From Candidatus Omnitrophota bacterium (GTDB taxonomy: Bacteria > Omnitrophota > Gorgyraeia > Duberdicusellales > 4484-171): a stretch of DNA of 42,469 nt. The translations under genes and the position numbers were made by a program. The stretch's first letter is position 1, and every line of letters starts with the position of its first letter. The notes beneath the pieces were generated by a model. That model was not told the DNA's origin. It saw nothing but the letters and a program-made list of their open reading frames with translations, and searched no databases. Of the stretch, positions 3,669-39,985 are shown piece after piece. The DNA lies in NCBI GenBank assembly GCA_014729775.1, contig WJJJ01000034.1:1-42469 (forward strand). Reading direction: 5' to 3'.

Positions 3669-4712
3669 ATGACAACCAAGAAAAAATACGATTCTATATT
3701 TTCCTCATTTCACACCATTTACCGGCTGATCACCACTTCCGGCGACATTAAAAACTTCTCGGTGGGCATCTGCCGGATATACCGCAACGCGTTCAAATCG
3801 GACAAGGTAGTAATGGTGTGCAAGAACGCAAACTCCTACGCGTTCATGAAAGTCCGTCTTGAAAAAAATGTGCATGCCATCAAAAAAGGCGGCGCGTCGA
3901 TCCTCACCGCGCGGGAAAAAGATATTCTGAGCCAGGAAACGGAAATCGTCCTCGACAACCGCATGATCTATCCCTTTAACTTTCTCAACACGCTGGGAAC
4001 CATTTATATCAAAAGAAAAAGCAGTAAGGGGAAATTCACTGAAATAGAAAAGAAATGGTTTCTCTCACTGTGCGAAGAAGTCAGTATCGGACTGAAAATT
4101 TTCAATTTATACCGGGAAGAAAAGAAGATCATGACCAGCTATATCAAATCGTTCACTAAACTGCTGAGTCAATACGTGCCGACGTCGTATATCCACATTA
4201 AAAGTATTTTTCGGCTCATCCGGGCCCTGGGCAAATCCATGAAATTATCGGAAATGGAGATCCAGTCGCTGGAGTATGCATCCCTCCTGCATGACGCGGG
4301 AAAAATTCAACTGCCCACGAAATTATTGAAAAAGGAACAACCGCTTACCAACGAAGAGTTCAAACTGATCATGAAGCATCCCCGAAAGGGAGTGGAGATG
4401 ATAAAAGACTTGGCCATTCTTCGGCCCGCGCTCCCGATCATTCTCCATCACCATGAACGGTTTGACGGAAAAGGGTATCCTTCCAAGCTGAAGAGAGAAC
4501 AGATCCCCGTAGGCGCACGGATACTTTCGATAATTGACGCCTTTGACGCGATGTACTTCGGCCGGCCGTACCGAAAGAGAAAAACCATGAAAGAAATCGA
4601 GAAAGAACTCCGCAAACAAAAAGGAAAGCAGTTTGACCCCCATATCGTGGAAAAATTCCTGAAAATACTCAATCGCAAAAGCATCAAAAAATACTTGCGT
4701 TCTTCCGTGTAA
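3669..4712 (+). CDS. HD-GYP domain protein (putative c-di-GMP phosphodiesterase) with N-terminal GAF-like region
   Basis: SLLHDAGKIQLP ... HHHERFDGKGYP ... ARILSIIDAFDAM. Confidence 0.85.
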   Translation: MTTKKKYDSIFSSFHTIYRLITTSGDIKNFSVGICRIYRNAFKSDKVVMVCKNANSYAFMKVRLEKNVHAIKKGGASILTAREKDILSQETEIVLDNRMIYPFNFLNTLGTIYIKRKSSKGKFTEIEKKWFLSLCEEVSIGLKIFNLYREEKKIMTSYIKSFTKLLSQYVPTSYIHIKSIFRLIRALGKSMKLSEMEIQSLEYASLLHDAGKIQLPTKLLKKEQPLTNEEFKLIMKHPRKGVEMIKDLAILRPALPIILHHHERFDGKGYPSKLKREQIPVGARILSIIDAFDAMYFGRPYRKRKTMKEIEKELRKQKGKQFDPHIVEKFLKILNRKSIKKYLRSSV

Positions 4713-7274: not shown

Positions 7275-8384
7275 ATGAAACAGGAAAGTTTCTCCACACT
7301 TACCGTGAAAACACCCCGGACAAAATATCCGATCCATATAGGATACAACCTGGCCAATTCTCTCAATTCCCGGATTCACTCTCTGAATCTGGGCAATCAC
7401 GGAGTCGTGCTCACGTCTCCTAAGGTCGCCCAGCTGTATAATTTGAAAAAAATGTTCGGTGCGACCTGTCCGGATATTCTCAGAATTGCCGACGGAGAAA
7501 AAGCAAAATCGAGAAGGTGGGTATTTCGCATTATCGACGAGTTGCTCGCCGCGGACACGTGGAATAAAAAATTATATCTCGTCTGCGTTGGAGGAGGAAC
7601 GATCGGAGATCTCGGCGGATTCATCGCTTCCGTCTATAAACGGGGAATTCCCTACGTACAGGTTCCTACGACTTTACTCGCCCAGATCGACGCCAGTATC
7701 GGAGGAAAAACGGCCATTGATCTTCCCCAGGCAAAAAACGTGATCGGCACCATTTATCAGCCAAAGGCGGTTTTTGTCGATCCCGATTTCCTTTTAACCC
7801 TGGAAAAAAGAGAACTGCTCCAGGGATTAGCGGAATGCATCAAATACGCAGTAATCACCGCGCCGCGGCTGTTTTCCTTGCTGGAAAAGAACGCAGAGAA
7901 GATCCTTGATCTGGACCCGCATCTCCGAAAAACAATCATTACTCGTTGCGCCGGAATCAAGACAAAAATCGTGTCAATGGACGAAGATGAGAAAAAGGGA
8001 ATCCGCACCCTGCTCAATTTCGGACACACGCTCGGGCACGCCCTGGAAACCTCCACGGGATACCGCCGGGCGCTTTCCCACGGTGAAGCGGTCGCGATCG
8101 GTATGCTTTACGCGGCGTTTCTTTCGCATGAACTCGGATTTTGTTCCCATAAATCGGTAGCAAGAATCCGTGATCTGCTGCTCCGGTTCCGACTGCCGGT
8201 CAAAATCAGGGGTAATCAAGAAAAAATATTCGAGGCGATACGATACGACAAGAAATTCATTTCCGGAAAAGCCAGAATGGTCCTTATACGAAAGATCGGG
8301 AATGCCCTGGTCCAGGACGACATCCCGCTGCCGGTCATCAAACGTGCCCTGAAAAATTATTGCAGATTCGTTGACAAGACCTGA
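7275..8384 (+). CDS. aroB: 3-dehydroquinate synthase
   Basis: VGGGTIGDLGGFIASVYKRGIPYVQVPTTLLAQIDASIGGKTAID, GFGHTLGHALE-like NFGHTLGHALE; start ATG 7275 chosen within longer ORF. Confidence 0.93.
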   Translation: MKQESFSTLTVKTPRTKYPIHIGYNLANSLNSRIHSLNLGNHGVVLTSPKVAQLYNLKKMFGATCPDILRIADGEKAKSRRWVFRIIDELLAADTWNKKLYLVCVGGGTIGDLGGFIASVYKRGIPYVQVPTTLLAQIDASIGGKTAIDLPQAKNVIGTIYQPKAVFVDPDFLLTLEKRELLQGLAECIKYAVITAPRLFSLLEKNAEKILDLDPHLRKTIITRCAGIKTKIVSMDEDEKKGIRTLLNFGHTLGHALETSTGYRRALSHGEAVAIGMLYAAFLSHELGFCSHKSVARIRDLLLRFRLPVKIRGNQEKIFEAIRYDKKFISGKARMVLIRKIGNALVQDDIPLPVIKRALKNYCRFVDKT

Positions 8385-8399
8385 AAAATGTGGTATAAA
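8371..8399 (+). promoter_or_regulatory. candidate sigma70 promoter inside 3' end of aroB
   Basis: TTGACA (8371-8376), 17 bp spacer, TATAAA (8394-8399). Confidence 0.65.
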
Positions 8400-8427
8400 T
8401 TGGGGATTATCGGTAGGAGAGAACAGA

Positions 8428-8757
8428 ATGGAAGAAAAACGTACGCATCCCCGGGCAGCAGTTTCATTTCCCATAGAATGCAGTCTGCAGTCTGAAAAAG
8501 CCGTTTTTTACACGGTAAGCACCGATTTAAGTCTCGGCGGCACGCGCATAGTAACGGAGGAACCGTTTCGCGAAGGGAAAGAGCTGACTCTGCGGATTAA
8601 TTTAATCGAACGAACGGTAAAACTGAAGGCACAGGTACGTTGGAGCGGCCGGGGAACCAACTCTCACCGATTTGTGGCAGGAATCCAGTTTAACGAATGT
8701 ACAGGGGAAAATAGACAAATACTCAACGGATTTTTAAAACGAATATTTAATTCTTAA
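8428..8757 (+). CDS. PilZ domain protein
   Basis: MEEKRTHPRAAVSFPIEC ... DLSLGGTRI ... VRWSG ... AGIQF. Confidence 0.8.
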   Translation: MEEKRTHPRAAVSFPIECSLQSEKAVFYTVSTDLSLGGTRIVTEEPFREGKELTLRINLIERTVKLKAQVRWSGRGTNSHRFVAGIQFNECTGENRQILNGFLKRIFNS

Positions 8758-8759
8758 TT

Positions 8760-8912
8760 ATGAGTAAACGCAGCGAAGCCAAAAGAAAAAACTGTCAGAG
8801 TTGCAACAAATCCTTGAGCCGGGTCGATTGGTATTACCGGAACGGGAAACATTTTTGTAATAAAAAATGTTACAAGGAATTTGAACAAAAGCAAACGCAA
8901 GAAGCTTCCTGA
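8760..8912 (+). CDS. 50-aa Cys4 zinc-finger-like miniprotein
   Basis: Manual translation MSKRSEAKRKNCQSCNKSLSRVDWYYRNGKHFCNKKCYKEFEQKQTQEAS; stop overlaps ATG of next PilZ gene; below the ORF-track size cutoff. Confidence 0.6.
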   Translation: MSKRSEAKRKNCQSCNKSLSRVDWYYRNGKHFCNKKCYKEFEQKQTQEAS

Positions 8913-9280
8913 TGGTCGAAAGACGCAAATACCCGCGCGTAAAGAAAAACCTTCCTCTGAAGATATCGGACGATGAGTACGATATCCTCACGGAAACAAA
9001 GAACATCAGCGGCAGCGGCGTATATTGTTCGGTCAATAAACCTATTCCAATTATGACCAAATTGAACATGGTGCTGCTTGTGCCGCTCAAAAAGAACCGT
9101 AATAAAGGTGACGTTAAAAAAATTAATTGTGAAGGGGTCGTAGTCCGAAGCGAACAGATGCGGGATAACGGAGAACATCCCTACCGGGTCGGAATATACT
9201 TTAACGACATAAAGGAAAAAGACCGCAAAGCCCTCGTTTCATATATTAATACGGCAGTAAAAGCCGGAATCCGCACGTAA
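8912..9280 (+). CDS. PilZ domain protein
   Basis: ERRKYPRVKKNLPLKI ... NISGSGVYCSV ... VGIYF. Confidence 0.8.
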   Translation: MVERRKYPRVKKNLPLKISDDEYDILTETKNISGSGVYCSVNKPIPIMTKLNMVLLVPLKKNRNKGDVKKINCEGVVVRSEQMRDNGEHPYRVGIYFNDIKEKDRKALVSYINTAVKAGIRT

Positions 9281-9286
9281 AATTCA

Positions 9287-9847
9287 ATGCTCGTCCGCCA
9301 GCCGCCGCGTCCAGTGAAATTCTTCTTCGGCGTTCTTTATTCCGAAGAATCAATCTATATCCGGGCCAGAGAACTCCTTGCGGAAAAATACGGCACATGT
9401 GATTTCGAAACCAAACCGGTCCCATTTACCTTTACCGATTACTACCAAGAGGAGATGGGATCGGGACTGCTCCGCAGATTTTTTTCATTGCGGACGTTAC
9501 GGACACCGGCGCGACTGGTCGGGATAAAACTAGACAGCATAGGAGTCGAAAAAAAGTTCTCCGTCGGAGAAAGGAGAAAAATCAATATAGACCCGGGGTA
9601 TATCAACGAGGCAAAACTGGTCCTCGCCAGCACGAAAGACTTCTCTCACCGTATCTATCTTTCCCGGGGGATATTCGCCGAAGTAACGCTCACCTATCAA
9701 CACCGGAAATTCCGGCCGCTTCCCACGACGTTTCCCGACTACCGGACAGAATGGTACAGGGAACAATTCGAGCAAATACGGACGCGGTACCGGGAACAAC
9801 TACTTGAGAAACCACATGAATACCGAAGAAAAGATCACCCGGCTTAA
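9287..9847 (+). CDS. DUF4416 family protein
   Basis: FFFGVLYSEESIY...FTDYYQEEMGSGLLRRFFSL...INIDPGYINEAKLVLASTKDFSHRIYL. Confidence 0.8.
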   Translation: MLVRQPPRPVKFFFGVLYSEESIYIRARELLAEKYGTCDFETKPVPFTFTDYYQEEMGSGLLRRFFSLRTLRTPARLVGIKLDSIGVEKKFSVGERRKINIDPGYINEAKLVLASTKDFSHRIYLSRGIFAEVTLTYQHRKFRPLPTTFPDYRTEWYREQFEQIRTRYREQLLEKPHEYRRKDHPA

Positions 9848-10751
9848 AAAAATCGACTCCCGGCTGTGGAATACGCTTGCGCACTGCACTCTTTGTCCCC
9901 GCGCCTGCGGATGCGACCGGCTCGCGGATACACGGGGAACATGCGGGGAGGGGAGAAGAGCAAAGGTGTATACGGCTTTTTTACACCCCGGAGAAGAGCC
10001 GCCCATCAGCGGAACCCGGGGAAGCGGCACGATATTCTTCTCCGGCTGCAGCCTTCGCTGCGTATACTGCCAAAACCATCAGTTCTCTCACCAGAACCGC
10101 GGGACGCCCGTCACGGAAGCAAGCTTGGCTGAAATCTTTCTCCGTCTCCAGGGAAAAGGCGCCCATAACCTGAATTTAGTGACCCCCACCCACATCTTCC
10201 CGCAAATCGTACGCGCGCTTATTAAGGCGTTCGAACAGGGCCTGCACATTCCGATCGTGTATAACAGCTCGGGATACGAATCGCCGGAGCTGGCCGATTT
10301 GGTTTCCCATACAGCGGATATATTTCTCATCGACGCAAAATACCTACATGCAGACACTGCCGCCCGGTATTCTCAGGCACCGGATTATCCCGAATGCAAT
10401 CGAGAATTTCTTGAAAAAGTGGGCGGGCGCCAACCGGTATGGGACGGCCGGCTGCTCCGCCGGGGCACCGTCATCCGCCATCTGGTCCTGCCGGGACACA
10501 GCGCGGAATCAATCGAGCTTCTCGAAATACTCACCAGAACCTGCCCCCGGGCATTGTTCAGCATCATGTTTCAGTACCGTCCTTTTTTCCGCGCTTGCGA
10601 CTACCCGGAAATCAACCGGGCCGTTTCGCACGAGGAATATTGTCAGGTTCAAAACGCCCTGGGAACAATGGATTTTGAAGGCTGGGTGCAGGAATTCAAT
10701 CCGCCGGAGGACCTCGCAGGCACGAATTTTCCGGATTCACTTGAAATATAA
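9816..10751 (+). CDS. radical SAM protein, PflA-like (COG1313 type)
   Basis: CTLCPRACGCDR, FFSGCSLRCVYCQNHQFS; ATG 9816. Confidence 0.85.
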   Translation: MNTEEKITRLKKIDSRLWNTLAHCTLCPRACGCDRLADTRGTCGEGRRAKVYTAFLHPGEEPPISGTRGSGTIFFSGCSLRCVYCQNHQFSHQNRGTPVTEASLAEIFLRLQGKGAHNLNLVTPTHIFPQIVRALIKAFEQGLHIPIVYNSSGYESPELADLVSHTADIFLIDAKYLHADTAARYSQAPDYPECNREFLEKVGGRQPVWDGRLLRRGTVIRHLVLPGHSAESIELLEILTRTCPRALFSIMFQYRPFFRACDYPEINRAVSHEEYCQVQNALGTMDFEGWVQEFNPPEDLAGTNFPDSLEI

Positions 10752-10770
10752 ACCGGCCATAGTATATACT
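10741..10770 (+). promoter_or_regulatory. candidate promoter for the free-standing structured RNA
   Basis: TTGAAA 10741-10746, 18 bp spacer, TATACT 10765-10770. Confidence 0.45.
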
Positions 10771-10778
10771 TTAACATG

Positions 10779-10967
10779 CCGGTAAGGGCAAACTCCGAGA
10801 AATTGGGGGGCGTCCCTTGGCGCGACAGGCGCGAGGGACCCCGCCGCGAATATTCGGGGCGGGGCAAAGCTACGGGCCTAAGGCAGTCCAAGAAGCCGTT
10901 GCTCTAACTGTAAGGGTGGGCAAGTGAGGCACTTGCGGCGCTGCTACGGTCGCCGGGTTGCAATCGG
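10779..10967 (+). ncRNA. structured RNA resembling a GEMM/c-di-GMP-I riboswitch aptamer with extra hairpins
   Basis: AAGGGCAAAC (10784-10793), GCAAAGCTACGGGCCTAAGG (10864-10883), GGTCGCCGGGTTGCAATCGG (10948-10967); terminal pairing CCGGT/ATCGG; inserted hairpins 10812-10839 and 10839-10864. Confidence 0.55.
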
Positions 10968-10979
10968 AACGCTGATTCC

Positions 10980-11009
10980 GGGCCCTTATCGGCCCTTTCT
11001 TCTTATTTT
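10980..11009 (+). terminator. rho-independent terminator downstream of the structured RNA
   Basis: GGGCC CTTATC GGCCC followed by TTTCTTCTTATTTT. Confidence 0.6.
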
Positions 11010-11286
11010 ATTGCGTCTTCTCGATGAAGAAACCAACCTTTTTCTCTTTTCCCGGTCCGGTAATCACGATATGATGGATGTTCGATACCGGGATAATCGC
11101 CAGATCATCGCCTTCCAGCGCGACATCCACGATCAGAAACGGCTCAAACTGAGCCACGCTGGGCTGGACGATTTTGTAAATAAACTTCGTTTCATAGGTC
11201 TTCCCGTTCGTAAGCGAAATCACGGCGCTGTGGGTATCGTTCTCCTTCAAAAAATCCTCGGTAGTACGGATGGCCATCAAATCCAT
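11008..11286 (-). CDS. uncharacterised 92-aa protein
   Basis: Strong SD AAAGGAGG upstream of ATG 11286; compact beta-rich sequence. Confidence 0.6.
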   Translation of the reverse strand: MDLMAIRTTEDFLKENDTHSAVISLTNGKTYETKFIYKIVQPSVAQFEPFLIVDVALEGDDLAIIPVSNIHHIVITGPGKEKKVGFFIEKTQ

Positions 11287-21709: not shown

Positions 21710-22288
21710 TCACTCAGTTTCCTTCCGGGGCACGAAATCCAGCGCCACGGAATTGATACAATAGCGGGTGTGCGTCGGCGGCGGGCCGTCGTCGAACACA
21801 TGCCCTAAATGAGCGTCACACCGCGCGCAGCGCACCTCGGTCCTGCGAAGAAAAAAGCGCCGGTCTTCGTGCAGGGTGATATTATGAGAAGAAACGGGAG
21901 CCGTAAACGAAGGCCATCCGGTGCCCGATTCAAACTTGGCGTCGGAACTGAACAGGTCAATCCCACAGCAAATGCAGGTATATGTTCCTGCTTCTTTCAA
22001 ATCGTAAAAGCGGCCCGAAAACGCGGATTCGGTACCGCCCTCACGGGTCACATGATACTGCTCCTTGGTGAGCTCTTCTCTCCACTGTTCGGGTGATTTA
22101 CGCACCTTATTCTTTAACACCAATCCCTCCTGAGAGACATCATACACTGGTATCGCGGTTCTTTCCCTCCCCCAGGCGTGTTCTTCCACTGCACCCCCGC
22201 GGAGCCCGAAGACGACTGTCAGAAAAAATATCCCCACCCGCCCGGTGACTGCGCACGCAGACCGGGATTTCAGCAAATTCTTCCCCAT
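21710..22288 (-). CDS. msrB: exported peptide-methionine (R)-S-oxide reductase
   Basis: YTCICCGIDLFSSDAKFESGTGWPSF, VRCARCDAHLGHVFDDGP, RYCINSVAL. Confidence 0.9.
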   Translation of the reverse strand: MGKNLLKSRSACAVTGRVGIFFLTVVFGLRGGAVEEHAWGRERTAIPVYDVSQEGLVLKNKVRKSPEQWREELTKEQYHVTREGGTESAFSGRFYDLKEAGTYTCICCGIDLFSSDAKFESGTGWPSFTAPVSSHNITLHEDRRFFLRRTEVRCARCDAHLGHVFDDGPPPTHTRYCINSVALDFVPRKETE

Positions 22289-23021: not shown

Positions 23022-23417
23022 CTATTCCGATAACACCGTTTCGACATAGTTACATATGGCTTTTTTATCCTGCGAGGCGATATCCTCAAACGCAATGCCG
23101 ATCCGATAATTCCCGCCTCCGGCTTTCTTTTGATATACGATCTTCCCCGTGATATTCATTTCCAGCATCCGGTCCTCCATGCTGGTCACCGTAGGATTCA
23201 CAAGAGTAAATTTGATTTTTAATCTGTCTTCGTCACTCAACCGTTCCTGGGTCAATAAAGCCAAACCGCCCTCACTCAAATCGACCATCTCAGCTTCAAA
23301 TTCCCGCTTTCCCATCACGATCTGGATAAGAAACGGGCGTTGGAACGCGTATGTGAGCGTAAAATCAACTTTGGCACGTGAATGCTTCCGCCGCTCGGAT
23401 GCCGATTTCTCCTTCAT
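23022..23417 (-). CDS. PilZ domain protein
   Basis: ERRKHSRAKVDFTLTY ... DLSEGGLALL ... IGIAFEDI. Confidence 0.8.
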   Translation of the reverse strand: MKEKSASERRKHSRAKVDFTLTYAFQRPFLIQIVMGKREFEAEMVDLSEGGLALLTQERLSDEDRLKIKFTLVNPTVTSMEDRMLEMNITGKIVYQKKAGGGNYRIGIAFEDIASQDKKAICNYVETVLSE

Positions 23418-23514
23418 GCATGCTCCTTTCCTGTTGTAACGTATGCGCCCGGAATAGGTTATTAACATATTCTATCCTATGGGCCGTGAATGTCAATGGG
23501 CTCGGCCGGGAAGA

Positions 23515-29788: not shown

Positions 29789-31537
29789 TTATTTTTTATA
29801 CGTCGGACGCGGCTTGTACTTAGTATGCAGCAACTCGTGCGCTTTTTCACTTAACGGCGCGTCCAAAAACTTCTTGTACAATTCCTTGATGTAAGGATTA
29901 TCGTGCGCGTACTGAATTTCCCGATTTTCGTCATCCGAATAAAGGCCCTGCGCCCGGGCGGTCCGTAACTTATCGGTAACCCCGTAGGGCTGTCCGCCGC
30001 CGCCCACGCATCCTCCGGGGCAGGCCATTACCTCCACGAAATGATAGGGAGGCTCTTTCCCGGCCGCCAACGCTTCGCGTATCTTGTTCAACACATACTC
30101 CACATTGCCTATTCCGTGCGCGATCGCAATGCGAATCGGTGCCCCCTGGATTTCGACCGTCGTTTCCTTCACGCCTTTTAATCCCCGGACACTCTCGAAT
30201 TCCACCCGGGCGACATTCTTACCGGTCACGAAATAATGCGCGGTACGCAGGGCGGCTTCCATGACGCCGCCGGTCGCTCCGAAAATTACGCCGGCGCCGG
30301 TATACTCTCCGAGGATATGGTCGGATTCCTCTTCAGGAAGATTTTCAAAATCAATACCCGCCTGTTTAATCATACGCGCGATCTCCCGCGTCGTCAAAGA
30401 TACGTCAATATCCTGATATCCGGACGAAAACATCTCGTTACTCCGGCTGATTTCGTATTTTTTTGACGTGCAGGGCATCACCGAAACCATGAACATTTTC
30501 TCCGGATCTACATTCTGCTGCTTCGCGTAATAGGTTTTGGAAAGCACTCCCACCATCTCGTGGGGCGACTTGGCCGAAGAGAAATGTTCGATCATATCCG
30601 GATAAAATTTCTCCATAAAATCAACCCACGAAGGACAGCAGGTGGTAATAAGCGGCAGTTTCCCTTTTTTATGGGTAAAGCGCTGGACGAATTCCGACGC
30701 CTCCTCCATGACCGTAAGGTCGGCGCCGAATGACGTATCAAATACCGCCCGGAACCCCAGCCGGCGAAGGGCCGCGTACAGCTTCCCGGTAAGATTCTCT
30801 CCGTCTTTAAACCCGAACGCTTCGCCGATGGCGACACGAACGGCGGGAGCAATCTGCACTACACAATATTTCTCCTGATTATACAGCGCCTGCCACACTT
30901 TGCGCGTATCGTCATGCTCGGCGATCGCCCCGGTCGGACAATGAGCCGAACACTGGCCGCAGCGAATGCACGGACTCTCCCCCAGATTAATGTCCCCGGC
31001 CGGAGAAATGCGGGTCTTGATCCCCCGCTCTAAAAAAGACAACGCCCATACGTCCTGGTGATTTTGGCACACGTCCACACAGCGTCCGCACAGAATACAT
31101 TTATCGGGAACCAGCGTAATCGTCTTCGTCGAATCATCTTCGGGCAGGTTGCGCAAAAACTGATCATACGGCACCTGGCGGATACCGAAATCAGCGGCGA
31201 GCTTCTGCAGTTCACAGTTATTATTCCGGGCACACTGCAGGCAGTCGTTGGGATGATTGGAAAGGATAAGTTCCACGACCGTTCGGCGAACATCCTGAAG
31301 TTCGGCATCGTGGGTAATGATTTCCATTCCCGTTTCCAGCGGGGTGCAACAGGCGCGCAGCATCTTACTGCTTCCCTTGACCTTTACCACGCAGATTCCG
31401 CAGGCGGCAGTCGCGTCAAGATCCGGATGCTTACACAATACCGGAATATGTACATGCACCTTTTTCGCCGCGTCAAGAATGGTGGTTCCCTGTTTTACTT
31501 CAACCGGAATATCGTTGATTTTCGCTTTGACCATCAT
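29789..31537 (-). CDS. hydA: [FeFe] hydrogenase catalytic subunit (HydA-like, second set)
   Basis: N-terminal 2Fe-2S and HxxxCxxCxxxxxC motifs, two 4Fe-4S motifs, H-cluster motifs TTCCPSW, MPCTSKKYE, EVMACPGGCVGGGGQP. Confidence 0.95.
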   Translation of the reverse strand: MMVKAKINDIPVEVKQGTTILDAAKKVHVHIPVLCKHPDLDATAACGICVVKVKGSSKMLRACCTPLETGMEIITHDAELQDVRRTVVELILSNHPNDCLQCARNNNCELQKLAADFGIRQVPYDQFLRNLPEDDSTKTITLVPDKCILCGRCVDVCQNHQDVWALSFLERGIKTRISPAGDINLGESPCIRCGQCSAHCPTGAIAEHDDTRKVWQALYNQEKYCVVQIAPAVRVAIGEAFGFKDGENLTGKLYAALRRLGFRAVFDTSFGADLTVMEEASEFVQRFTHKKGKLPLITTCCPSWVDFMEKFYPDMIEHFSSAKSPHEMVGVLSKTYYAKQQNVDPEKMFMVSVMPCTSKKYEISRSNEMFSSGYQDIDVSLTTREIARMIKQAGIDFENLPEEESDHILGEYTGAGVIFGATGGVMEAALRTAHYFVTGKNVARVEFESVRGLKGVKETTVEIQGAPIRIAIAHGIGNVEYVLNKIREALAAGKEPPYHFVEVMACPGGCVGGGGQPYGVTDKLRTARAQGLYSDDENREIQYAHDNPYIKELYKKFLDAPLSEKAHELLHTKYKPRPTYKK

Positions 31538-33282
31538 TACTCCCGTGTTACCGCGTCGAACTTACAGACTTCAAAGCATTGACCGCATTTCACGCATTTC
31601 TCCACATCAATTCTGTACCCTTCCTCGCGGCTGCCGGAGATCGCATTCACCGGGCAGTGCATCGCGCACACGCCACATCTTTTACACTTTTCCTGCTTAA
31701 TTTTATACCTGAGCAAATCAATACATTTCCCCGCCCGGCACCTGCGTTCGCGAATGTGTTCCAGATATTCTTCCCGGAAAAAGCGAAGAGTGGAGAGCGT
31801 CGGATTCGGCGCGGTCTGTCCCAATCCGCACAACGCCGCTTTCTTGGTCGCCCGGCAAATCGCTTCCAACTTATCCAGATCGTCTTCCCCGGCCTGCCCG
31901 GACGAAATCTTCTGTAAATAATTACGCATCTGAAACGTGCCGATGCGGCCCGGAGAACATTTCCCGCACGCCTCATCAACACAGAAATTCAGGTAAAATT
32001 TCGCGATATCCACCATACAGTCCTCTTCGTCGATAACGATCATTCCCCCCGAACCCATGATCGATCCCAATTCCATCAGGTGTTCGTAATCAACCGGGGT
32101 ATCCAGGAATTTATCGGGGATCACTCCTCCGGAAGGACCGCCGGTCTGGACCGCTTTTAATTTTTTCCCTTCGGACAACCCTCCGCCGATTTCATAGACG
32201 ATCTCGCGCAGGGTAATGCCCATAGGAACCTCGATGAGTCCCGAATTCTTGACCTTCCCCGTCAGCGCGAAAACTTTGGTCCCTTTTGCCGTTTGGCTGC
32301 CGATTCCGGAAAACCACGCTCCGCCCCGGTCAAAGATCACCGGAATATTGGCGAGCGTCTCCACGTTATTGATCACCGTGGGCATCCCCCAAAGTCCCTT
32401 GACCGAAGGATACGGCGGACGGGGAGACGGATAGCCCCTTTTCCCCTCCACCGAGGCGATCAACGCGGTTTCTTCGCCGCACACGAACGCACCGGCGCCA
32501 AGACGGATTTCCAGATCGAACTGAAATTCTGTTCCGAGGATATTCCCGCCGAGCAGACCGTAGTCCTGCGCCTGTGCGATCGCTCTTTGAATGCGCTCAA
32601 TCGCCAGGGGATATTCGGCTCGAATATAAAGAAACCCTTTTGAGGCCCCTACCGTATACCCGGCAATGATCATCCCCTCGAGCACCGCATGCGGATCTCC
32701 TTCAAGCACGCTGCGATCCATGTACGCGCCGGGATCACCCTCATCCCCGTTACAAATAATGTACTTCTCTGCCGCTTCGACTTTGCGCGCGAAATTCCAT
32801 TTCATCCAGGTCGGGAATCCACCGCCGCCGCGGCCGCGCAGCCCGCTCGTCTTCAGCTCGTCGATAACCTGCTCCGGAGTGAATTCGGTAAGCACTTTCT
32901 TTAACGCTCCGTATCCTCCGTGTAGAATGTAATCATCGACGCTTTCGGGATCGACCTCCCCGCAATTCTTCAGCACCACCCGCATCTGTTTTTCCCGCGG
33001 AGTATACAGGAGATCCTGCACCGGATTGCTCTTTTTTAATGAAGTCTGCACTATTTTCGGTACATCTTTTGCTTCCACGTTCACGTAGGTATATTCATCG
33101 GGCAGTATTTTTACCACAAGACCGTACCCGTACATTCCCAAATCGCCGGCCCGGACGACCTGCACCTCTTCCTGGAGACCTTCTTCGCGTAAACGTTCCA
33201 GGAACAGATTGAAGAACTCCTTGGTCCGGTCGAGAGCTCCGGTATCCTTAAGAAGAAGGGTTTTCCTGTAGCGTGCTTCCAT
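31537..33282 (-). CDS. hydB: NuoF-like hydrogenase subunit (HydB-like, long form with C-terminal 2x[4Fe-4S])
   Basis: GRGGGGFPTWMKW, ICNGDEGDPGAYMDR, ACGKCSPGRIG, CKRCGVCAMHCP, CVKCGQCFEVCK. Confidence 0.93.
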   Translation of the reverse strand: MEARYRKTLLLKDTGALDRTKEFFNLFLERLREEGLQEEVQVVRAGDLGMYGYGLVVKILPDEYTYVNVEAKDVPKIVQTSLKKSNPVQDLLYTPREKQMRVVLKNCGEVDPESVDDYILHGGYGALKKVLTEFTPEQVIDELKTSGLRGRGGGGFPTWMKWNFARKVEAAEKYIICNGDEGDPGAYMDRSVLEGDPHAVLEGMIIAGYTVGASKGFLYIRAEYPLAIERIQRAIAQAQDYGLLGGNILGTEFQFDLEIRLGAGAFVCGEETALIASVEGKRGYPSPRPPYPSVKGLWGMPTVINNVETLANIPVIFDRGGAWFSGIGSQTAKGTKVFALTGKVKNSGLIEVPMGITLREIVYEIGGGLSEGKKLKAVQTGGPSGGVIPDKFLDTPVDYEHLMELGSIMGSGGMIVIDEEDCMVDIAKFYLNFCVDEACGKCSPGRIGTFQMRNYLQKISSGQAGEDDLDKLEAICRATKKAALCGLGQTAPNPTLSTLRFFREEYLEHIRERRCRAGKCIDLLRYKIKQEKCKRCGVCAMHCPVNAISGSREEGYRIDVEKCVKCGQCFEVCKFDAVTRE

Positions 33283-36857: not shown

Positions 36858-38786
36858 TCACCTTTTTTTCTTTTTCCCGGACGGGGAAGCGCCCTGCTTC
36901 CCTATCCACTTTCCCCGGACAGTATAGCCGGTATGGAGCAGCTCGTGGCTTTTATGCCCGCAGGGACCTTCGGTCAGGAACTCGGCGTATATCTGCTGAA
37001 CGATCGGATTTTCGTGCGACTTCCTCACAGTCAGAGTTTCGTCTTCGGCGTAGATCGCGTTCGCGCGCAGCTGTCTGATTTCTGCGGAAGTGGGAACGGG
37101 CTGGCCGCCACCGCCCAGACACCCGCCGGGACAGGCCATCACCTCCACGAAATGATACCCTTGCAGATCTCCGGAAGCGAGCATATCCATCAGCTTTCGG
37201 GCGTTGGCCGTGCCGTGTCCCACCGCGACTTTTAACGTCGCCCCTTCCAGGAATTTCCATTCTTTTTTCGCGCTTTTGATCGGGACCTCAGCCTTGCGGA
37301 CGCCTTTCATTCCCCGGACGGGCTTTACTCTCAATTTTTCAAAGGGAATTTCCTCGCCGGTCACGATTTCATAGGCCGTACGGATCGCCGCCTCCATCAC
37401 CCCGCCCGTGGCTCCGAAGATGAGACCGGCTCCGCTGCCGATTCCCAGCGGATCGTCAAAATTCGATTTGGGCAGATTGGGCAGATCAATGCCGCATTCC
37501 TTGATCATTCCCGCCAATTCCCGCGTAGTCAGCGCGTAGTCGACATCCTGCAGACCGGAATCATCCATTTCCGGCCGTTCACATTCGAATTTTTTAGCCG
37601 TACAGGGCATCAGTGACACGCTCACGATATTTTTCGGATCGATATCGTGCTTTCGGGCGTACCAGGTTTTAATCAGCGCACCGAACATCTGCTGGGGACT
37701 CTTTGCCGTAGACAGGTAATCAAGCTTATCCGGATAGAAATATTCCATGTACTTAACCCAGCCCGGCGAACAAGAGGTAAACTGGGGCAGTTTTATGTCT
37801 GGATCTTTATCCACCAGCGCTTTTTTCAGTCTCAGCAGCAGCTCGGTTCCCTCCTCCATAATGGTAAGATCAGCGGTAAAATTAGTATCAAACACCTTAT
37901 CAAACCCGATTCGCTTCAGGGCGGTATTCATCTGTTTGGTCACGCTGGTACCTGGCTTCAGACCGAATTCCTCTCCCATCGCCGCCCGCGGACTGGGTGC
38001 GGTCTGGATCACCACGTGCTTTTCCGGATCATCAATCGCCTTCCAAATGTCATCCACGTTGCTCTTTTCGGTAAGCGCACCGGTAGGGCAGCGGTTCACG
38101 CATTGGCCGCAATTGATGCATATCACGTCGTTCAGCGGCTTATCGAGATAGGTTGAGATCTTCGTTTCCTGGCCCCGGTTGATCGATTCCAGCACGCCGA
38201 CTTCCTGCATGTCAATGCAGGTACGCACGCACCGCTTACACAACACGCATTTATCCATGTCCCGGACGAGGGAAAAACTCGACTCGTCGCGCGCGTAACG
38301 CGGCGTGTCTCTATGTCCGAATTTATATTCGGTCACCCCATACTCCTCGGCCAGCTTCTGCAGTTCGCAGTTATTGTTCTTTTCGCAGGAATAGCATTCG
38401 CCGATATGGTTCTTCAGCAGCAAATTGAGAATATTGTGTCTTGCCCTTCTGACCCGCGGCGAGTACGTTTTCACCTTAGTCGCGTGGAACAACGGATAGG
38501 AACAGGCCGCCTGGAGCGTGCGCTGTCCCTCCACTTCCACCACACAGACGCGGCACACCCCGGCCAGACATAAATCGTCGTGATGACACAGTGTGGGAAT
38601 TTTGATGTTCACCGTCCGGGCGGCGTCAAGAATAGTCGTTCCCATGGGGACTTTTACCTCCATGTGATCGATTGTCACCGTCACCATCCCGCCCAAAAAA
38701 TGCTTATTTTTTACCTGCTCCGCCGGCTGCGATCTCTGGCTGACCGGCGCACGGGAGGTATTCTGCGTAAAAGGTTTCTTGCTCAT
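36858..38786 (-). CDS. hydA: [FeFe] hydrogenase catalytic subunit (HydA-like, first set)
   Basis: 2Fe-2S, HIGECYSCEKNNNC, 4Fe-4S motifs, H-cluster motifs TSCSPGW, MPCTAKKFE, EVMACPGGCLGGGGQP; ATGA overlap with upstream gene. Confidence 0.94.
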   Translation of the reverse strand: MSKKPFTQNTSRAPVSQRSQPAEQVKNKHFLGGMVTVTIDHMEVKVPMGTTILDAARTVNIKIPTLCHHDDLCLAGVCRVCVVEVEGQRTLQAACSYPLFHATKVKTYSPRVRRARHNILNLLLKNHIGECYSCEKNNNCELQKLAEEYGVTEYKFGHRDTPRYARDESSFSLVRDMDKCVLCKRCVRTCIDMQEVGVLESINRGQETKISTYLDKPLNDVICINCGQCVNRCPTGALTEKSNVDDIWKAIDDPEKHVVIQTAPSPRAAMGEEFGLKPGTSVTKQMNTALKRIGFDKVFDTNFTADLTIMEEGTELLLRLKKALVDKDPDIKLPQFTSCSPGWVKYMEYFYPDKLDYLSTAKSPQQMFGALIKTWYARKHDIDPKNIVSVSLMPCTAKKFECERPEMDDSGLQDVDYALTTRELAGMIKECGIDLPNLPKSNFDDPLGIGSGAGLIFGATGGVMEAAIRTAYEIVTGEEIPFEKLRVKPVRGMKGVRKAEVPIKSAKKEWKFLEGATLKVAVGHGTANARKLMDMLASGDLQGYHFVEVMACPGGCLGGGGQPVPTSAEIRQLRANAIYAEDETLTVRKSHENPIVQQIYAEFLTEGPCGHKSHELLHTGYTVRGKWIGKQGASPSGKKKKR

Positions 38787-39985
38787 CGGACCAGCTCCTT
38801 TCGTTGAGAAGTAGACAGGGGACACTCCTTGGGGAACTTCTCCAGTATCGATACCAGCGCGTTCGGCGCGGACTGTCCCAGACCGCATTTCGACGCCAGC
38901 TGCATTGTTTCGCTCAGCGAATACACTTCTCCCAGCTCGTTCCGGGTAAGCTCGCCGGCACGCAGTTTTTCCGCGTATTCGAGCAATACCGGCACTCCTT
39001 CACGGCAGGGCGTACACTGTCCGCAGGATTCCTCGGCGAAAAACTCGAGGAAATTATGGACCACGTCGATCAAAGAACGGCGGGAATTGAATACGATGAC
39101 CGACCCGCCGGTAGAGAGATCTTCGTAGGCAATGACACGCCCGAACTCTTTTTTGGGAACGCAGGTGCCCGAAGCTCCCCCGACTTGTACCGCCTTAGTA
39201 TCTTCGGCCTCGACCATTTTGAGGATCTGTTTAATCGAGGTTCCGAAAGGCACTTCGTATACTCCCGGTTTGCGGCAGTCCCCGGACACGCTTAGAAGCT
39301 TGGAACCTTTCGATTTTTCTGTCCCGAACGACGCGAACCACTCCGCGCCTTTGGCGATAATGTGCGGCACCGCGGCAAACGTTTCCACGTTATTCACTAC
39401 CGTCGGAGACCCGTGCAATCCGGTATTAGTGGGAAAAGGAGGCCGGTTACGGGCTTCTCCGCGGTATCCCTCCAGAGATTCGATCAGCGCGGATTCCTCA
39501 CCGCACACGTAAGCGCCCACGCCGAAACGGATCTCGATATCAAAATGAAAATCTTTCTTTCCGAGGATCGCATCCCCTAAAGCTCCTTCATCTTCCATCT
39601 GCTGCAGCACCTGTTCGAGATGCGGGCCGAACGACCGGTACTCGCCGCGCAAATAGACGTATCCATGCTGCGCCCCAACCGCGTATCCGGCGATCACCAT
39701 GCCCTCGAATACCGTCCGGGCGTACTCTTTGAGAAGCACGCGGTCTTTAAACGTACCCGGTTCGCCCTCGTCAGCGTTGCACACGATAAATTTCCGCTCT
39801 CCTTGGGCGGTTGCCGCTAAATTCCATTTGACCCCGGTAGGAAAGCCGGCACCGCCTCTGCCTTTGATCTGCGAGTTCCTCACTTCACCGATCACATCGG
39901 CGCGGGACTGGCCGAGAGCAGCTTTGAGTCCTTCATCCGGCGCGATTCCGCTGAATATGATCGGCCCTTGTCTTTGTGTTTCCAT
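38783..39985 (-). CDS. hydB: NuoF-like hydrogenase subunit (HydB-like, short form)
   Basis: GRGGAGFPTGVKWN, CNADEGEPGTFKDR, SCGQCTPCREG, KCGLGQSAPN; no N- or C-terminal ferredoxin-like domains. Confidence 0.93.
   Translation of the reverse strand: METQRQGPIIFSGIAPDEGLKAALGQSRADVIGEVRNSQIKGRGGAGFPTGVKWNLAATAQGERKFIVCNADEGEPGTFKDRVLLKEYARTVFEGMVIAGYAVGAQHGYVYLRGEYRSFGPHLEQVLQQMEDEGALGDAILGKKDFHFDIEIRFGVGAYVCGEESALIESLEGYRGEARNRPPFPTNTGLHGSPTVVNNVETFAAVPHIIAKGAEWFASFGTEKSKGSKLLSVSGDCRKPGVYEVPFGTSIKQILKMVEAEDTKAVQVGGASGTCVPKKEFGRVIAYEDLSTGGSVIVFNSRRSLIDVVHNFLEFFAEESCGQCTPCREGVPVLLEYAEKLRAGELTRNELGEVYSLSETMQLASKCGLGQSAPNALVSILEKFPKECPLSTSQRKELVR

Follow-up and report, generated by a model that had tools for sequence, protein, structure and literature searches.

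The c-di-GMP riboswitches are known as switches ahead of genes, and ligand sensors inside trans-acting small RNAs are known from Rli55 of Listeria and EutX of Enterococcus. The RNA described here shares with Rli55 and EutX the idea of a sensor within a small RNA, but aptamer and ligand differ and the present RNA has no known target. The one described case of a free-standing c-di-GMP riboswitch found in a literature search is merRNA of the predator Bdellovibrio bacteriovorus, a non-coding RNA of 445 nt with no conserved ORF after it, which is hugely expressed by measurement (in the attack phase), is not conserved outside Bdellovibrio and has been proposed to store the ligand (PMC3627812), a role that is unproved. 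In the pilM c-GAMP ON-switch, aptamer and terminator are mutually exclusive, resulting in ON logic (PMC9262584). No publication mentioning Omnitrophota together with riboswitches was found in a literature search, and the main text of an Omnitrophota survey mentions neither c-di-GMP nor riboswitches (PMC10066038).

The present locus lies in a 42,469-nt stretch of Omnitrophota DNA (the window, meaning the whole stretch analysed), which by its relatives comes from a metagenome-assembled genome of this phylum and for which the initial annotation had proposed a free-standing c-di-GMP-I RNA with its own promoter. Judged from its sequence, this is a real, conserved stand-alone c-di-GMP-I RNA, for whose ligand binding, expression and function there are no experimental data; promoter and RNA recur in 24 families, which bears out the proposal. 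The RNA resembles merRNA in being free-standing with a c-di-GMP aptamer and in lacking a conserved downstream ORF, whereas it is only about 130-230 nt long across copies (predicted from sequence), is conserved class-wide in a different phylum and has no expression data; the two sequences were not compared. The features of the locus and of the surrounding genes are the following.

9287-10751, + strand: upstream genes, DUF4416 and radical SAM (Pfam, synteny)
10741-10770, + strand: promoter TTGAAA-N18-TATACT, matching 10 of 12 consensus bases (consensus scan) and ending 7 nt before the RNA
10778-11009, + strand: window RNA, from aptamer through terminator tail (RF01051 and relatives)
10778-10788, + strand: 5' arm GCCGGUAAGGG of the closing helix (T-stem), including the P1 5' strand and G20 (pairing in 68 loci, compensatory changes)
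10793-10808, + strand: P2 hairpin CUCCGA-GAAA-UUGGGG with a GNRA tetraloop (alignment with P2 of insert-free relatives)
10813-10838, + strand: inserted hairpin 1, 26 nt, specific to the window copy (absent from the other seven A2 sequences; folds alone)
10839-10864, + strand: inserted hairpin 2, 26 nt, specific to the window copy (absent from the other seven A2 sequences; folds alone)
10865-10961, + strand: remaining aptamer, with CAAAG (A47), P3 with the CCUAA receptor strand, and GGGUUGC (C92) (RF01051 alignment, P3 covariation)
10983-10993, + strand: 3' arm CCCUUAUCGGC of the closing helix, partner of 10778-10788 (pairing in 68 loci; MFE fold of the window)
10996-11009, + strand: U-rich stretch behind the 3' arm, read as intrinsic terminator tail and predicted RNA 3' end (U-tract count over 68 loci)
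11008-11286, - strand: convergent 92-aa gene, possible antisense target of read-through (ORF and homologues; best Pfam match far below cut-off)
8371-8757, + strand: PilZ gene, confirmed
8912-9280, + strand: PilZ gene, confirmed
23022-23468, - strand: PilZ gene, confirmed
3669-4712, + strand: HD_5 gene of HD-GYP type, confirmed

The full RF01051 model aligns to window positions 10777-10965 (+) with 34.8 bits (E 3.2e-5, cmscan), 0.2 bits short of the curated cut-off of 35, and a gathering-threshold scan of the whole window is empty because this match falls just under it. The Infernal search suggested with the initial annotation thus yields a full-length match without passing the cut-off, and the aptamer blocks that it had listed in order were all found at 10778-10961, aligned to the full model. 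The alignment places the binding-site residues G20, A47 and C92 in the window RNA, in a numbering inferred from the Rfam consensus and from Vc2. The GAAA loop of P2 and the CCUAAG strand of P3 satisfy the GNRA loop/receptor criterion. The G20 motif is present in 70 of 70 aligned copies, and the A20 criterion of GEMM-Ib/c-AMP-GMP aptamers is not met; the C92 motif is kept in 69 of 70, and strict GCAAAG around A47 in 51 of 70, the other 19 not having been inspected singly. GCAAAG, with A47 kept, occurs both in the window and in locus L131, and the G at position 47 that defines RF03167 (consensus CGCGAA) is not met, although some copies score above the RF03167 cut-off all the same. In 19 of the 20 related loci scanned, the RNA exceeds the RF01051 or RF03167 cut-off (L154, L126 and others, up to 76.9 bits).

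Compared with RF01051 (GEMM-I), the Omnitrophota RNA has the same aptamer core, GNRA-loop P2, CCUAA receptor strand in P3 and residues G20, A47 and C92, but it is free-standing, has a closing helix and U-tract formed from its own 5' end, and carries a P3 extension. The extension (AAGCCGUUGC...GCAAGUGAGGCA in the window RNA) is common to several other families. Its conserved form AAGCCGU...AGUKAGGCA (window 10882-10935; copies of families f2, f19 and f4) contains two asymmetric internal loops.

The window copy further differs from RF01051 in its two inserted hairpins, which had been placed at about 10812-10839 and 10839-10864 and are real, with exact bounds 10813-10838 and 10839-10864. Alignment with relatives lacking the insert indicates that the extended P2 of the initial annotation is better described as extra sequence inserted at the 3' base of P2, at GGCG|CAAAG in the window and GRCG|CAAAG in the relatives. 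The two-hairpin insert is unique to the window copy among the copies compared and aligned. A genomic repeat was ruled out as its source, no second copy being present in the window's genome. The two 26-nt hairpins probably keep the window RNA under the RF01051 cut-off, and the insert might impair this copy's own aptamer. It cannot be excluded that the 5' strand of P2 pairs instead with UCGGGG of hairpin 2, as in the cmscan alignment. P2 is also elaborated in L153 (RNA 1501-1718, -), in a manner unlike the window insert.

The most constant added feature of the RNA is the closing helix, in which the initial 11 nt (GCCGAUAARGG) pair at 10 or more of 11 positions with the 3' arm CCYUUAUCGGC in 68 of 68 loci. 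This conserved 11-bp pairing exceeds the 5-bp closure CCGGU/AUCGG and replaces the CCGGT/ATCGG closure proposed earlier. A U-tract (at least 5 U in 10 nt) follows the 3' arm in 63 of the 68 loci. A few copies have a poor U-tract, and L142, which has none after the 3' arm, was set aside. The helix is 99.6% paired and shows compensatory changes at 7 of 10 pairs, mostly in single sequences, with a repeated A-U/G-C exchange at position 9; sliding the alignment by one column halves whole-structure pairing. Together with covariation of the P3 helices, these changes supply the covariance from homologues that had been named as a check. MFE folding recovers the helix in the window and in 67 of the 68 loci, while helix and U-tract together occur in none of the 26 ordinary c-di-GMP-I loci of the family. 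The 68 loci were picked with a model that contains the closing helix, which inflates the helix frequency and is why a comparison restricted to RF01051-derived loci matters: of 32 loci brought in by RF01051 alone and scored with model R2 (see below), four free-standing ones reach 89.6-133.6 bits and all ordinary ones stay at or below 68.3 bits, a clean split that counts for a stand-alone RNA gene.

The 10th pair of the closing helix involves G20. Since the helix covers both G20 and P1, helix and ligand binding should exclude each other, as far as can be predicted from the pairing. CG follows the C92 motif in 50 of the 68 loci, like the short P1 of RF03167. The terminator had been placed at 10980-11009, and its hairpin GGGCC-CUUAUC-GGCCC and T-run are indeed present, but at chance level (1 found, 1.1 expected); the long-range stem 10778-10788/10983-10993 is the better-supported terminator stem. 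A local hairpin P4 overlapping the 3' arm was considered as a general competitor and rejected, being no more frequent than in shuffled sequence, and is suggestive in some members.

The promoter at 10741-10770 is the one given in the initial annotation. Of 67 loci, 61 have a -35/-10 promoter that ends 2-10 nt before the RNA; in shuffled upstream sequence the rate is 1.9%. A second hairpin terminator lies within 110 nt downstream in 29 of 68 loci; a restricted scan counting 6-bp stems only found one in 20 of 68, against 0.9% in shuffles.

The distribution of the RNA was established with two successive covariance models. When the RNAs of eight genomes of the window's family were aligned, both ends showed invariant blocks, and model R1, built on this alignment, found high-scoring full-length copies across the class. 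Model R2, built on 43 copies, was run on 384 sampled Omnitrophota genomes, of which 99, from 24 families and all of the one class to which the window belongs, yielded 100 matches scoring 84 bits or more; no match in the other Omnitrophota classes sampled reached 84 bits, the maximum being 73.6 bits among the matches listed. The RNA is nearly always present as one copy per genome, with two only in G018. One of the 100 matches (L157 of G057) was set aside as resembling an ordinary switch: it has a local terminator of its own, and 35 nt downstream lies a gene. In viral contigs, 16 exact pattern matches were found, none of which was this Omnitrophota RNA by covariance model.

The genes around the RNA are far less constant. 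RNA and DUF4416/radical SAM genes adjoin in most of the family f1 loci first compared, and a sister genus keeps the order DUF4416, radical SAM, RNA and convergent 92-aa gene, with an RNA of 68 bits and a plain P2. The gene after the RNA is often convergent, as in f2 and in the window (where, as annotated, it lies on the opposite strand), varies between families, or stands behind a second terminator. In f19 both flanking genes are on the opposite strand, one of them encoding REC-GGDEF-MshEN. In L101-L113 and related f19 loci, the 3' end of the RNA abuts the 3' end of this convergent gene, whose signature is GGDDF in the copy examined. Over 68 loci, no conserved co-directional gene follows the RNA, and the cis-regulation criterion of a riboswitch is not met; this absence concerns use as a riboswitch, not homology of the aptamer. 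The HD-GYP gene and three PilZ genes that the initial annotation had noted in the window were all identified.

These features are, on balance, best accommodated by a stand-alone small RNA gene with a c-di-GMP-gated closing helix, whose product works in trans or stores the ligand, a reading that we regard as reasonably probable. The near-consensus promoter would place the transcription start on GCCGAU or no more than a few bases away, and the transcript would fold the c-di-GMP-I aptamer. Pairing of the first 11 nt with the 3' arm before the U-tract would give a closed, terminated RNA, in which the closing helix would occupy P1 and G20, both required by the ligand-bound aptamer. Binding of c-di-GMP would hold the helix open, giving a longer transcript (to the second terminator where present) and a free 3' arm. 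Because no conserved gene follows the RNA, its ligand-controlled product would most likely be a trans-acting small RNA or a store of c-di-GMP. Aptamer homology, promoter, covarying closing helix, U-tract, overlap of helix and binding site, and variable, often convergent neighbours are read directly from the sequences; the ligand, switching and its direction, expression and trans action are inferred, in the absence of transcript, ligand-binding or termination data. A class-wide regulon, in which the RNA alternates between a closed terminated and an extended form whose free 3' arm acts on RNAs or proteins under c-di-GMP control, can be put forward only tentatively. The 5'-arm sequence, sought elsewhere in the genome as a possible sign of targets, occurs at 18 sites and its reversed pattern at 6, a difference not interpretable alone. 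As a further free-standing case beside merRNA, independent of it, much more broadly conserved and likewise from a lineage proposed to be predatory, the RNA would make it testable whether second messengers act through free RNA.

It is also conceivable, though unlikely, that the RNA is a passive c-di-GMP reservoir in the manner of merRNA, an abundant RNA that stores and releases ligand and whose closing helix is only a terminator or stability element. Most Omnitrophota are proposed predators or parasites (PMC10066038), as Bdellovibrio is a predator, and the near-consensus promoter fits high expression, for which there are no data. A mere store has no need of a helix in competition with the binding site, whereas this very helix is the most constant addition to the RNA.

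Two further explanations, both improbable, make the RNA a regulator of an adjacent gene. Read-through controlled by c-di-GMP could silence the convergent 92-aa gene by antisense, as the initial annotation had envisaged and as is possible at the window, where the RNA lies opposite to a gene within 500 nt like antisense-acting riboswitches; among the riboswitch families of one survey, c-di-GMP shows the strongest enrichment in antisense orientation (PMC9943018), and the gene is convergent within 15 to 65 nt in the window and in G005. The supposed target is, unlike that of such riboswitches, not conserved with the RNA: the gene, which is well conserved in four genomes and has no Pfam match above cut-off, occurs in only 4 of 42 searched genomes of the order, with the RNA beside it in only 2 of the 4, and neighbours in other families are unrelated. 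The RNA could instead be an ordinary cis ON-switch, in which ligand blocks termination and a long leader reaches a co-directional gene, in the window the MORN-repeat gene. Its terminator stem is built on the aptamer 5' strand, comparable to the pilM switch (PMC9262584), and in f4 a GH1 gene often lies 32-188 nt downstream, mostly behind a second terminator. The pilM switch controls a downstream gene, whereas the gene after the Omnitrophota RNA, which keeps G20, varies by family and faces the RNA from the opposite strand in about 25 of the 68 loci (counted from the neighbour listing); a second terminator cuts it off in many non-convergent loci, and the window MORN gene has its own TATAAT box just upstream. 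Cis control stays possible in several families, where a co-directional gene lies within a few hundred bases and no second terminator was detected. The decay of a riboswitch whose gene was lost is already disfavoured and barely credible, since promoter, helix and aptamer are maintained over 24 families, even though the window copy carries an insert and falls under the Rfam cut-off.

The window's genome contains nine further RF01051 matches above cut-off. The ordinary RF01051 aptamers L001 (C18:55341), L002 (C13:30374) and L004 (C17:81023) of this genome, as well as L019 and L020, have AAGAGC with A at position 20, which suggests, from sequence, possible c-AMP-GMP sensing; the ordinary RF01051 aptamers L028, L034 and L037 have AATAGC. 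Tandem c-di-GMP-I aptamers (L003 and L005, C29:21618-21723 and 21774-21880) lie upstream of a co-directional 394-aa ORF in the same genome. The window also encodes two iron-only hydrogenase large subunits on the minus strand (29789-33282 and 36858-39985); near each of the two lie NuoF-like and thioredoxin-like ferredoxin genes.
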